From positions 1 to 42,177 of the forward strand of contig JACSSA010000107.1 in NCBI GenBank assembly GCA_014879465.1: 42,177 bases of DNA, given 5' to 3'. This stretch comes from Rhodothermales bacterium (GTDB lineage: Bacteria > Bacteroidota > Rhodothermia > Rhodothermales > BA12). Of this stretch, positions 16,021 to 32,712 are shown piece by piece. Under the pieces are notes generated by a model. The model had not been told where the DNA came from. It ran no database searches and was given only the letters and a program-made list of their open reading frames with translations. Position numbers and translations under genes: made by a program. Numbering within the stretch: the first letter of the stretch is position 1; each line of letters starts with the position of its first letter.

Positions 16021-16093
16021 GGCTGGGTAGCTCAGTTGGTAGAGCATGCGACTGAAAATCGCAGTGTCGGGGGTTCAATTCCCTCCCCAGCCA
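16021..16093 (+). tRNA. tRNA-Phe (anticodon GAA)
   Basis: A 73-base cloverleaf. Acceptor stem GGCTGGG pairs with CCCAGCC, followed by discriminator A. The D arm is GCTC/GAGC. The anticodon stem TGCGA/TCGCA has loop CTGAAAA, with GAA at the anticodon position. The variable region is GTGTC. The T arm is GGGGG/CCCTC (one G-U pair) around TTCAATT. The 3' CCA is not encoded (the genome reads CCT after the discriminator), so it must be added enzymatically. Its antisense strand gives the familiar false protein text GRELNPRHCDFQSHALPTEL, which is not a gene. Confidence 0.98.
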
Positions 16094-26752: not shown

Positions 26753-28276
26753 TCAGTCCAGCGCGGCGGCGGTGTAGCGTGCCCCGGCGTTCCAGAGCAA
26801 GAACGACGGCATCCCGGCGTCGGCGGCGGCTTGGATTTGCGCCTTCACCTTTGTCGCGTCGTAGCGCACGCCCAGCGAAAAGTCTTGCAGCCACGGCACC
26901 ACCTCGGCGTCCGTGCCTGCCACCTTGTCCCGGAAGTCGAGCAAAGAGCGGTAGGTGATCTCGTAGGGCATCGCGTTGGGGTTGGCAACGCCGTATTCGC
27001 CTGGCCCCCAGTGCGACGGGTAAACCATCGGGGCGACGATGTCGACGCACCGGGCCAGCGCCGGGATGTTCTGCCCCACCGCCCACGGGCGGCTCGCGGC
27101 GATGCCGAACACCGACACGCCGTAGCCCGCGCCGAGCGCGTGGACGGCCTCGGCGCTCTGGCACACAAACCGGGCGATGCCCGCCTCTACGCTGTCGCCT
27201 TCGGGCATCCCGGCAAACCGCATCGCCGAGAGCGCTCCTTCCGGTCGGCGGATGTAGTCGAGCAGCACGTCGTCAAAGCCCAACCGTGCGGCTTCTTCGG
27301 CGAGGGCGCGGTTGTAGGCGGCCACGCTGTCGGCGTACGGGTTGGTGAAGGCGTAGGAGCCGTACGAGCCGCCGAAGGGCTGCCCGCTGCTCGTCTGCAC
27401 GAGCCAGTCCTGACGGTCGTTCGTCCACGCCCACCGCCCAAGGATGGGGTCGCGGAAGACGACGAGCCGCCCCACCACGCGCACACCCATCGCGTGGAGG
27501 CTGTCGAGCACGGCGCGGGCATCGTAGTGGTTTTTGTTAGCGCCGATGCGCCCGGCCAGTGGCACGGTGGACGTGTAGCCGATTTCGCCGGCCTCGTCCT
27601 TGATGTCAAGCTGGATCGTGTTGATCGCGCCCGCCCGCACAAGCCGGAGGATTGGCTCGCGCAGGCTCCGGGCCGTCCAGCCGAGCGCCGTTACATGCAC
27701 GCCCCGCATCGGCCCCGCCGCGAGCGCGACGGCTCGCGTGGCCGTATTGCCCGCCGCATCGGTCGCGGTGAGCAAGATCCGCCGGGCGTTGGCGTCGGGT
27801 ACCGCCACGGCGAACGTGCTGTCGGCCTGCTCCACGGCGAGGCGGGTGCCGTCCGGCGCAGTGGCCGTCAAGCTGTCGGCTCCGGAGACGGTGCCGCGCA
27901 CGGTAAACGGCCCGCGTGCGCCGGTAGCCGAAACCGTATCGACGCGGAGGCGCGGCGGCGTGCGGTCGAGCGCGAAGCGCCAGCGGGGGCCTCGGTTCGA
28001 GGCATCGACGGCGCGGAGCGTGTGCTCGCCGTCTTTCAGGCTGTCGAGGCGTAGCTCAAACCGCCCATGGCCTCGGTTGTAGGCCAGCACCGGGCGTTCG
28101 TCCAAAAGGAACGTCGCGTTCTCGCCCTTGGGCACCACCATCGTCGCCACGAGGGTGTCAAACGCAGCGGCGCTCAGGGTCGTACCGTCTTCGAGACCTT
28201 CGAGCGTGACGTTCGGTCCGCTCTGGCACGCAGCAACGGCAAGCAGGAGCGAGAGGGCAGAGGCGAGGCGGTGCAT
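26753..28276 (-). CDS. Lipoprotein with DUF4015 putative glycoside hydrolase domain
   Basis: A 507-residue exported lipoprotein. The lipobox LAVAAC puts the anchored Cys at 17. Residues about 20-195 form beta-sandwich-like repeats (text such as TVRGTVSGADSLTATAPDG). The C-terminal half (about 200-507) is a TIM-barrel-like domain of the DUF4015/PF13200 type: NTIQLDIKDEAGEIGY, YAFTNPYADSV, FDDVLLDYIRRPEG and VDIVAPMVYPSHW. Conserved acids in LDIKDE and LLDYIRRP are the likely catalytic side. The glycan substrate is unknown. It converges with the rhomboid gene with 14 bp between stops. Confidence 0.87.
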   Translation of the reverse strand: MHRLASALSLLLAVAACQSGPNVTLEGLEDGTTLSAAAFDTLVATMVVPKGENATFLLDERPVLAYNRGHGRFELRLDSLKDGEHTLRAVDASNRGPRWRFALDRTPPRLRVDTVSATGARGPFTVRGTVSGADSLTATAPDGTRLAVEQADSTFAVAVPDANARRILLTATDAAGNTATRAVALAAGPMRGVHVTALGWTARSLREPILRLVRAGAINTIQLDIKDEAGEIGYTSTVPLAGRIGANKNHYDARAVLDSLHAMGVRVVGRLVVFRDPILGRWAWTNDRQDWLVQTSSGQPFGGSYGSYAFTNPYADSVAAYNRALAEEAARLGFDDVLLDYIRRPEGALSAMRFAGMPEGDSVEAGIARFVCQSAEAVHALGAGYGVSVFGIAASRPWAVGQNIPALARCVDIVAPMVYPSHWGPGEYGVANPNAMPYEITYRSLLDFRDKVAGTDAEVVPWLQDFSLGVRYDATKVKAQIQAAADAGMPSFLLWNAGARYTAAALD

Positions 28277-30454: not shown

Positions 30455-30478
30455 CGTTTTCAATCGGGACTGAAAACG
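30455..30478. promoter_or_regulatory. Near-perfect 24-bp inverted repeat upstream of the UPF0047-like gene
   Basis: CGTTTTCA and TGAAAACG are perfect arms; inside them TC-GG-GA continues the symmetry with one mismatch. It lies 72-95 bases before the ATG and 37 bases before a TACCTTC box, a typical place for an operator. It could also end xseA transcription, but the stem is AT-rich and lacks a T-run. Confidence 0.5.
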
Positions 30479-30514
30479 TCCGCATCCAGCCTTGTCCTTC
30501 AGCGTATCGGTTCG

Positions 30515-30521
30515 TACCTTC
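30515..30521 (+). promoter_or_regulatory. TACCTTC box upstream of the UPF0047-like gene
   Basis: Lies 35 bases before the ATG and belongs to the recurring promoter-like box set of this window. Confidence 0.35.
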
Positions 30522-30549
30522 GCCCCCGATTCGTCTCCCGGCACCCTCC

Positions 30550-31617
30550 ATGGCCGTCTCTCCGGAATACACCCTTACGCTTTCGCCCCGCACGCGCTTC
30601 GATCTCATCGACGTGAACGCGCTGCTCCGCGAGACGCATGGCGATGTGCTCGCTCGCTACCCCCGCGCCCTCTACGCGTCGTACCACACGACGGCGGGCT
30701 ACGTCGAAGAACCCGATCTGCACCGCCTCGGCGTGGGGCCGCAGGGCGTGCGTGCGCACGTCGAGGCCTACCGACGCCTCTACCCCGAAGGCGCGGGCTA
30801 TCGCCACGACCATCTGCCCGAACGGCACGAACTGACCGAGGAACAGAAGAAGACCGAGCCGCTCAATGCCGACGCCCACCTGAGCTTCATCGGTGCGGGG
30901 CTGACCAACTGCGTCACCTACACCGCCCGCCCCGACGAGCCGGCGCTGTTCGTCGATCTCGACGGCGTGGGCGTGACAGGGCCGCGCTCCCGCCGCACCA
31001 CCGTGATCGGCTTTGGCTCGGAGAAACTCGTCGCGCACGCCGTGCTCGCCGCTCCGGCCAGCGAACTCCGGGTGGACTCGTTCAACCTCCGCGACGGCGC
31101 GTTCGGGTTGTTCGACGAGCTTCAAGCGCTGGTCGAACGCCACGGCGTGTCGAAAGGACGGCTCGAACTGCGCCTCTTGGACGACGACGTGCACGCGGGC
31201 CTGACCGTCAACGAGTTCGAAACGCTCTTGATGACCCACGACGTGCGCGAGGTGATGCGCAACCCGTTCTACTTCGCCGCCCAGAAGACGTGGCACGCCG
31301 TGCGCCACCCGCGCTCGGCCCGCGAGAAGCTCACCGACTACGCGAAGTACGACGCCGTGCTGCTTGTCAACCAGACGCTCGACCGCCTCGGCTTGCGCGG
31401 CACGCCTGTGGAAACGGCGATGAACACGCTGATGGGCAACTCGGCGCGCAAACGCCTCCGGATGAAGCGCACGGTGAACCTGCCGGTGTCGGATCACGAC
31501 CGCGACGGCGTCGGGGAGATCGTGCAGGGCACCTACCAAAGCCCGATTCTCATCCAGTGGAACCGCCCGCGCCAGAGCGTCCGCCACGTCGACGTGCGCC
31601 TCTACGCCTTCGACTGA
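30550..31617 (+). CDS. Large protein with N-terminal UPF0047/YjbQ-like domain and unknown C-terminal domain
   Basis: A 355-residue soluble protein. Residues about 8-158 resemble UPF0047/YjbQ proteins: ARYPRALYASYHTTAGYVEE (His46 in HTTAG), a tyrosine/histidine segment AGYRHDHLPE, NADAHLSFIGAGLTN (His110) and, near the end of the domain, RSRRTTVIGFG. YjbQ proteins are normally about 135 residues; some are reported to have thiamine-phosphate synthase activity. Here an insertion of charged residues (ERHELTEEQKKTEP, 91-104) precedes the NADAHL motif, and about 195 further residues follow (including NEFETLLMTHDVREVMRNPF and NTLMGNSARKRLRMKR) that I do not recognise. No signal or membrane segment. 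A near-perfect inverted repeat lies upstream. Function is unknown. Confidence 0.75.
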   Translation: MAVSPEYTLTLSPRTRFDLIDVNALLRETHGDVLARYPRALYASYHTTAGYVEEPDLHRLGVGPQGVRAHVEAYRRLYPEGAGYRHDHLPERHELTEEQKKTEPLNADAHLSFIGAGLTNCVTYTARPDEPALFVDLDGVGVTGPRSRRTTVIGFGSEKLVAHAVLAAPASELRVDSFNLRDGAFGLFDELQALVERHGVSKGRLELRLLDDDVHAGLTVNEFETLLMTHDVREVMRNPFYFAAQKTWHAVRHPRSAREKLTDYAKYDAVLLVNQTLDRLGLRGTPVETAMNTLMGNSARKRLRMKRTVNLPVSDHDRDGVGEIVQGTYQSPILIQWNRPRQSVRHVDVRLYAFD

Positions 31618-31663: not shown

Positions 31664-32164
31664 ATGAGCTTGCGTTCCTCATTCGCCGTTTCGCTCATCG
31701 TGCCCGTTCCCGCTGCCCTGGGCCTGCTTGGCCCCTCTCGCGACGTCCTCCGCCGTTCCCTCGACGGACTGACCGAGACGCAACTGCTGACCGTCCCGGA
31801 CGGTCACCGAAACCACCTGTTCTGGAACGTCGGGCACCTCGTCGTCACCCAGCAGATCCTCACCTACCGCCTCTCCGGTCTGCCGCTGAACGTCTCGGAC
31901 GATCTCGTGACGCACTTCGCCAAGGGCACGTCGCCGCTGGACTGGACGACCACGCCGGACGTGGACGAGGTCTTCCGCCTGTTCGACGCGCTGCCGGCGC
32001 AGACCGTCGCCGATTACGAGGCCGGACGGTTCGAGACGTTCACGCCGTACCAGACGGCGACCGGCCCGTTCCTCGCCACGTTCGACGACCTGCTCGCGTT
32101 CAACCTCTTCCACGAGGGCCTGCACGCGGGCATTGCCTCGGCGATGCGGCGGCTGGTTGGGTGA
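31664..32164 (+). CDS. DinB-superfamily four-helix protein
   Basis: A 166-residue protein with the DinB/YfiT-like pattern: an opening helix around PSRDVLRRSLDGLTETQL, His58 in NHLFWNVGHLVV, and the C-terminal His150 and His154 in LFHEGLHAG, making a metal-binding His triad. Members of this family include thiol-dependent transferases, but this one's reaction is not indicated. It is 46 bp after the UPF0047-like gene and 59 bp before the asparaginase-like gene, so the three may be one transcript. A GTG at 31700 is an alternative start that would give a more typical length. Confidence 0.8.
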   Translation: MSLRSSFAVSLIVPVPAALGLLGPSRDVLRRSLDGLTETQLLTVPDGHRNHLFWNVGHLVVTQQILTYRLSGLPLNVSDDLVTHFAKGTSPLDWTTTPDVDEVFRLFDALPAQTVADYEAGRFETFTPYQTATGPFLATFDDLLAFNLFHEGLHAGIASAMRRLVG

Positions 32165-32223: not shown

Positions 32224-32712
32224 ATGGTTCTCATCCTCACCACCGGCGGCACCATCGACAAGGTGTATTTCGACGCCAAGAGCCGCTACGCCGTCGGGGA
32301 GCCGCAGGTGACGATGATCCTCCGCGAGGCCGGGGTGACCACGCCCTATCGCGTGCTCACGCTGCTGCAAAAAGACAGCCTCGAAATCAACGCCGACGAT
32401 CGGAGCCTGCTGGCCGCGCACGTCCGCCTCACCGACGAGACGCGCATTCTCGTCACCCACGGCACGGACACGATGACGGAAACCGCCGCCGCCCTCGCCG
32501 ACGCCGCCGAGGAGAAGGGCAAGACGGTCGTGCTCGTCGGCAGCCTCTCGCCCGCGCTGCACCGCACCACCGACGCCGACTTCAACATCGGCTTTGCCTT
32601 CGCTGCTGTGCAAACCCTTCCCGCCGGCGTCTACATCGCGATGAACGGACAGGTCTTCCCCTACGACCACGTCCGCAAAAACCGCGAGGCCAACCGCTTC
32701 GAGGCGATCTGA
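32224..32712 (+). CDS. Single-domain asparaginase-like protein
   Basis: A 162-residue protein covering only the N-terminal domain of type I/II asparaginases. It keeps the nucleophile motif TTGGTID (Thr7) and the second catalytic motif THGTDTMTE (Thr81, Asp82). VVLVGSLSPALH is in the place of the usual VGAMRP stretch. The C-terminal domain that completes the dimeric active site in full enzymes is absent, and the stop is clean, so this is a stand-alone subfamily rather than a truncation. Activity on asparagine is uncertain. Its TGA directly abuts the stop of the convergent lipoprotein gene (TGATCA). Confidence 0.85.
   Translation: MVLILTTGGTIDKVYFDAKSRYAVGEPQVTMILREAGVTTPYRVLTLLQKDSLEINADDRSLLAAHVRLTDETRILVTHGTDTMTETAAALADAAEEKGKTVVLVGSLSPALHRTTDADFNIGFAFAAVQTLPAGVYIAMNGQVFPYDHVRKNREANRFEAI

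Follow-up and report, generated by a model that had tools for sequence, protein, structure and literature searches.

How can a gene whose N terminus resembles UPF0047/YjbQ encode a protein more than twice the length of that family? The question is raised by one locus in the window, by which we mean the whole 42,177-nucleotide stretch of Rhodothermales contig JACSSA010000107.1 that was analyzed. The sequence-only reading of this DNA described a YjbQ-like N terminus that keeps the HTTAG and NADAHL motifs, with a charged insertion before the latter and about 195 unrecognized residues behind it, and suggested that the product could be a new multidomain enzyme.

30550..31617, + strand: gene for the tandem YjbQ-like protein (open frame; full-length homologs)

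This open frame, which has an ATG start codon and 355 codons for 355 amino acids, is a real, conserved gene. Full-length homologs with 36 to 50% identity and a common start region were found in 48 of 60 order-level relatives. Outside Rhodothermales, we detected homologs in records titled Acidobacteriota, KSB1, Calditrichota, Rokuibacteriota (Rokubacteria), and others. Of the 247 genomes from an acidobacterial phylum, 33 carry the gene, as do 16 of the 82 from the phylum of the KSB1 record, which was searched with a profile of the C-terminal half; all 16 matches to that profile lie inside open frames of at least 358 aa. In a sample of 198 genomes from the window's own phylum, matches were confined to the window's order, and plasmid records encoded no relative. 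One homolog-bearing record (L035, VFZH01000125.1) is titled Acidimicrobiia, and its genome, G242, came up in the phylum search centered on G243 (Candidatus Sulfopaludibacter); the title of the record and the taxonomic placement of the genome disagree.

The matches listed in the genome searches all covered both halves of the protein except for three fragments: G050, G283, and a G038 match that is shortened. No stand-alone N- or C-terminal half was seen in the genomes sampled in the order, phylum, acidobacterial, and KSB1-record searches; in these genomes the halves are obligately fused.

The window protein alone gave no Pfam or NCBIfam match at an E value of ≤10 and no match as a single query in a PDB search, but profiles built from its relatives did match. 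A profile of the N-terminal half, made from 72 homologs, aligned to a reference set of 16 UPF0047 proteins, drawn solely from the phylum of the window, with an hhalign probability of 95.6 and an E value of 1.2e-8, and in a full-length profile of 44 homologs residues 6 to 158 aligned to the entire UPF0047 domain of the same set. Among the matches listed, 23 of the 44 homologs matched Pfam family PF01894 (best E value, 6.7e-6), and 19 of the 44 matched the NCBIfam YjbQ model TIGR00149 (best E value, 1.5e-6); the genome matches listed for the family reached 21 to 24 bits, versus a curated cutoff of 27. On these profile comparisons, the N-terminal half is a divergent YjbQ/UPF0047 domain related to the family by distant homology, much as its motifs had suggested.

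30550..31020, + strand: N-terminal YjbQ-like domain, residues 1 to 157 (hhalign alignment to UPF0047; Pfam and NCBIfam matches in homologs)
30685..30699, + strand: HTTAG, residues 46 to 50, with the first conserved His (H46 in 72/72 homologs)
30799..30810, + strand: YRHD, residues 84 to 87, with the second conserved His (Y84 and H86 in 72/72; D87 invariant)
30811..30858, + strand: charged insertion relative to UPF0047, residues 88 to 103 (gap in hhalign)
30856..30882, + strand: EPLNADAHL, residues 103 to 111, with the third conserved His (E103, P104, N106, D108, H110, and L111 invariant)
30955..30966, + strand: DLDG, residues 136 to 139, counterpart of UPF0047 E-x-D/R (136 is D or E in 72/72)

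Both motifs are indeed kept. In HTTAG, every one of the 72 aligned homologs has A49 and G50, and 71 of them have Thr at residue 47; in NADAHL (residues 106 to 111), N106, D108, and H110 do not vary across the 72, nor do D138 and G139 farther along. The charged insertion that precedes NADAHL proved to be a true gap against UPF0047 in the hhalign alignment. R92 and E103 are invariant in it, L95 is nearly so, and P104 is conserved, so the insertion is a trait of the family and not a quirk of one genome.

The first hint about the remaining residues was an alignment of PDB entry 1vph (SSO2532, YjbQ-like) to residues 186 to 236 and 323 to 350 of the full profile, not to its start. Residues 156 to 355 were modeled alone with AF2 from the 72 homologs (mean pLDDT, 72; 80 to 95 in the core strands and below 50 in a helical insertion). 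Searched against the PDB with Foldseek, this model retrieved 17 chains at E values below 0.001, all of them YjbQ/UPF0047 (best E value, 2.5e-7 with a probability of 1.00; TM score by target length, 0.59 to 0.72), and the first unrelated match had an E value of 0.065. The full-length model retrieved the same 17 chains, and the order strand-strand-helix-strand-strand-helices-three strands is present in both of its halves. A viral structure library returned only low-scoring, capsid-like matches.

Profile comparisons point the same way. The C-half profile scored 26.8 against UPF0047 in hhalign, versus a maximum of 18.9 in 100 column shuffles and 14.8 for the reversed profile; NE, D, G-x-W-Q, and R align in order, at a weak probability of 15 to 17%. 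Against the PDB, 1vph and 1vmf ranked first, with E values (0.022 and 0.11) that are weak taken alone.

31021..31614, + strand: C-terminal YjbQ-like domain with helical insertion, residues 158 to 355 (half-alone model; hhalign score)
31186..31242, + strand: D/E213 to D231, HAGLTVNEFETLLMTHD, counterpart of UPF0047 HTTAGLTINE...D (N221, E222, and D231 in 72/72)
31243..31455, + strand: helical insertion, about residues 232 to 302 (pLDDT below 50 for most of it)
31528..31560, + strand: GTYQSPILIQW, residues 327 to 337, counterpart of UPF0047 GTWQ..y..E (G327, Q330, P332, and Q336 in 72/72)

According to the models, the C-terminal half repeats the YjbQ fold in a more diverged form that carries an additional helical segment. 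The stretch of about 195 residues described earlier does follow the first domain, but it is no longer unrecognized. We regard it as very likely that the protein has a two-domain, tandem YjbQ architecture; the notion of a new multidomain protein thereby holds, as this architecture was previously undescribed. At position 213, where the UPF0047 His is replaced, 71 of 72 homologs have E and the window protein has D; position 329 is Y in 70 homologs and F in 2, and R345 is invariant in 72/72. The helical insertion holds the conserved residues P239, Y264, Y267, D268, N274, and A299, although pLDDT is below 50 across residues 225 to 302, and the arrangement of the two domains is likewise of low confidence in the models. 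Compared directly with hhalign, the N- and C-half profiles gave a nonsignificant E value of 0.25, and with no detectable similarity between them, duplication within the gene is indistinguishable from fusion of two UPF0047 paralogs.

The invariant positions of UPF0047 were mapped onto both halves by alignment, with conservation scored across the 72 homologs; the position pairs of the C-terminal half rest on the weak hhalign alignment, and the canonical set represents a single phylum. All three His residues map to the N-terminal half (H43 to H46, H77 to H86, and H91 to H110) and are lacking in the C-terminal half, which has E/D213 opposite H43. T44 is kept in the N-terminal half as T47, and E122 corresponds to D/E136 there and to Q336 in the C-terminal half. 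N51, E52, and D60 correspond to N221, E222, and D231, and G113, W115, and Q116 correspond to G327, Y/F329, and Q330, all in the C-terminal half; none of these six is kept in the N-terminal half. A46 and R130 are kept in both halves, A46 only partly in the second. Retained positions are identical in 72/72 homologs except T47 (71/72), 329 (Y/F), and 136 (D/E). Apart from the two shared positions, each mapped residue is fully or almost fully conserved in one half, and the other half has lost it or carries a different residue, so that the mapped functional set is present once in the two halves combined. From these complementary conserved subsets we infer an active site common to the two domains, and a single composite site of this kind is rather probable.

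Taken as a whole, the locus is best explained, with a probability of about 0.68, by a tandem YjbQ duplication or fusion with a composite site. We postulate the following arrangement. Single-domain YjbQ proteins would be oligomers, judging from the three chains of PDB entries 1vmf and 1xbf and the six of 1vph, and their canonical site would be built by two adjacent subunits, one giving the His cluster and the other the N-E/G-x-W-Q residues. In the fused protein, the N-terminal domain would supply the His/acid side and the C-terminal domain the NE/G-x-[YF]-Q side, yielding one composite site per domain pair instead of the equivalent sites of a homo-oligomer. The chemistry is presumably of the YjbQ type, acting on a small, probably phosphorylated metabolite, possibly at a three-His, metal-assisted center.

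Single-domain UPF0047 coexists with the tandem gene in 29 of 48 gene-bearing relatives and in 15 of the 16 gene-bearing genomes that were examined in other groups, so the tandem form is no simple replacement. Within the order, the single-domain gene is commoner where the tandem gene is present (29/48 versus 1/12; P = 0.002, uncorrected for shared ancestry); in the window's own genome the long form is present and single-domain UPF0047 (PF01894) was not found. A second single-domain copy in the relative G023 (G023:C1:579679-580029) contains an in-frame TAA. Because both forms coexist in many genomes, the reaction may be distinct from that of single-domain YjbQ, and we lean slightly toward the fuller proposal of an obligate two-domain enzyme that arose by duplication or paralog fusion, underwent complementary residue loss, has one composite site, and carries out a reaction different from that of its single-domain relatives.

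An alternative hypothesis is that the N-terminal domain alone is catalytic and that the C-terminal domain is a degenerate YjbQ pseudo-domain serving folding, oligomerization, or ligand sensing. The absence of all three His residues from the C-terminal half and its new helical insertion would fit such a role, yet N221, E222, D231, G327, Q330, and R345 are invariant there in 72/72 homologs, the set includes polar residues lost in the N-terminal half, and a purely structural domain is not expected to keep exactly those residues; we consider the pseudo-domain unlikely. Thiamine synthesis offers a different role. A passage in PMC11551756, citing Morett 2008, states that overexpressed yjbQ can stand in for thiE in Escherichia coli, and in the window's genome (G000, 99.28% complete) neither ThiE (PF02581) nor a single-domain UPF0047 was matched, as might be expected of a thiamine-phosphate synthase that replaces ThiE. 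The same genome also has no match to ThiC (PF01964), which implies that the de novo pyrimidine branch is absent. We compared ThiE, ThiC, and UPF0047 across 60 genomes (G000 to G059, the window's own genome, G000, standing in for G060). ThiE is absent from 16 of the 48 genomes with the tandem gene and from 3 of the 12 without it (Fisher P = 0.74), 32 genomes hold both the gene and ThiE, and the gene shows no association with ThiC (P = 0.21). Thiamine synthesis is thus an unlikely role for the gene, and replacement of ThiE in particular is decidedly improbable. Counting the window's own, 15 genomes of the order that carry the gene have neither ThiC nor ThiE over the cutoff, which suggests thiamine auxotrophy or salvage in those genomes.

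The sequence-only reading had also raised the possibility that the product acts together with those of the DinB-like and asparaginase-like genes that follow, and had described an operator-like dyad in front.

30455..30478, no strand assigned: 24-bp dyad, 95 bp before the start codon (8-bp perfect arms)

An operon of the three genes under this dyad would be consistent with their common strand and short spacing: 46 bp separate the tandem gene from the DinB_2 gene, which is followed after about 60 bp by the Asparaginase-N gene. The DinB_2 gene (window positions 31664 to 32164) encodes a DinB_2 family protein (PF12867; E value, 4.6e-20), and the Asparaginase-N gene is an open frame of 162 aa (32224 to 32712) with an N-terminal asparaginase domain only (PF00710; E value, 1.8e-23) and no C-terminal asparaginase domain. 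However, with tblastn we found neither gene beside the tandem gene in any relative examined, neither in 29 other order-level loci (about 1.5 kb of flank where the contig allows) nor in 57 wider regions (typically 3 to 17 kb), so joint action of the three genes is unsupported. The dyad itself is present and can alternatively be read with 11-nt arms that are 91% complementary, but an operator role is unsupported: a perfect 8-bp dyad (spacer of ≤10) occurs in the 200 bp upstream of 0 of 43 other homologs, the genome holds no further copy even when 2 mismatches are allowed, and the window contains about 15 distinct dyads of the same strength, than which this one is no rarer. An operon of this kind is very hard to credit.

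Other neighbors were considered and rejected as clues to function. Upstream of the tandem gene, xseA was found at 17 of the 29 other order-level loci, with one weak match among them. An SDR oxidoreductase lies close to the tandem gene in 12 of the 19 Rhodothermales regions, in most cases about 1 kb downstream and on the other strand. Neither linkage is general outside Rhodothermales; SDRs are too common, and the xseA linkage is too lineage-bound, for a function to be assigned from them. The SDRs of these 12 regions (within L162 to L178) share 59 to 78% identity, and the counterpart in the window's genome (61%) sits on another contig. In one region from the acidobacterial-phylum search (L154, genome G270), a 63% identical SDR lies about 1 kb upstream of the tandem gene on the same strand. 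Elsewhere in the window, positions 26753 to 28276 (− strand) encode a putative glycosyl hydrolase domain, DUF4015 (PF13200; E value, 1.9e-88), preceded by weak Ig-like/BiPBP_C matches, and positions 16021 to 16093 (+ strand) hold a tRNA gene (Rfam RF00005).

The tandem duplication or fusion with a composite site would have consequences for the YjbQ/UPF0047 family at large, which is widespread and represented by several solved structures. In the literature searched, we found no settled physiological function of YjbQ/UPF0047 and no paper on a tandem YjbQ or on a YjbQ trimer. Because the fused variant sorts the conserved residues into two groups, it makes a prediction about which of them lie opposite one another at the canonical subunit interface; if the composite-site reading is true, ordinary YjbQ oligomers would have their active site between subunits. 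The split also offers a direct mutational test of where that site is. An undescribed family of about 355 aa that spans several phyla, and whose member in the window has no Pfam or NCBIfam match, is now placed in a known superfamily.

The known family, PF01894 in Pfam and TIGR00149 ("secondary thiamine-phosphate synthase enzyme YjbQ") in NCBIfam, includes the structures 1vph, 1vmf, 1vmj, 1xbf, 1ve0, 2p6h, and 2cu5. The tandem protein resembles it in the predicted fold of the C-terminal half, in the profile of the N-terminal half, and in having every mapped invariant polar residue in one half or the other. It differs in its insertion before NADxH and in the helical insertion, about 70 residues long, within its C-terminal half. 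Single-domain UPF0047 proteins hold the invariant set (HTT, NE, D, H, H, G-x-W-Q, E, and R) in a single domain about 140 residues long, whereas the tandem protein splits that set between two domains, each of which lacks about half of it.
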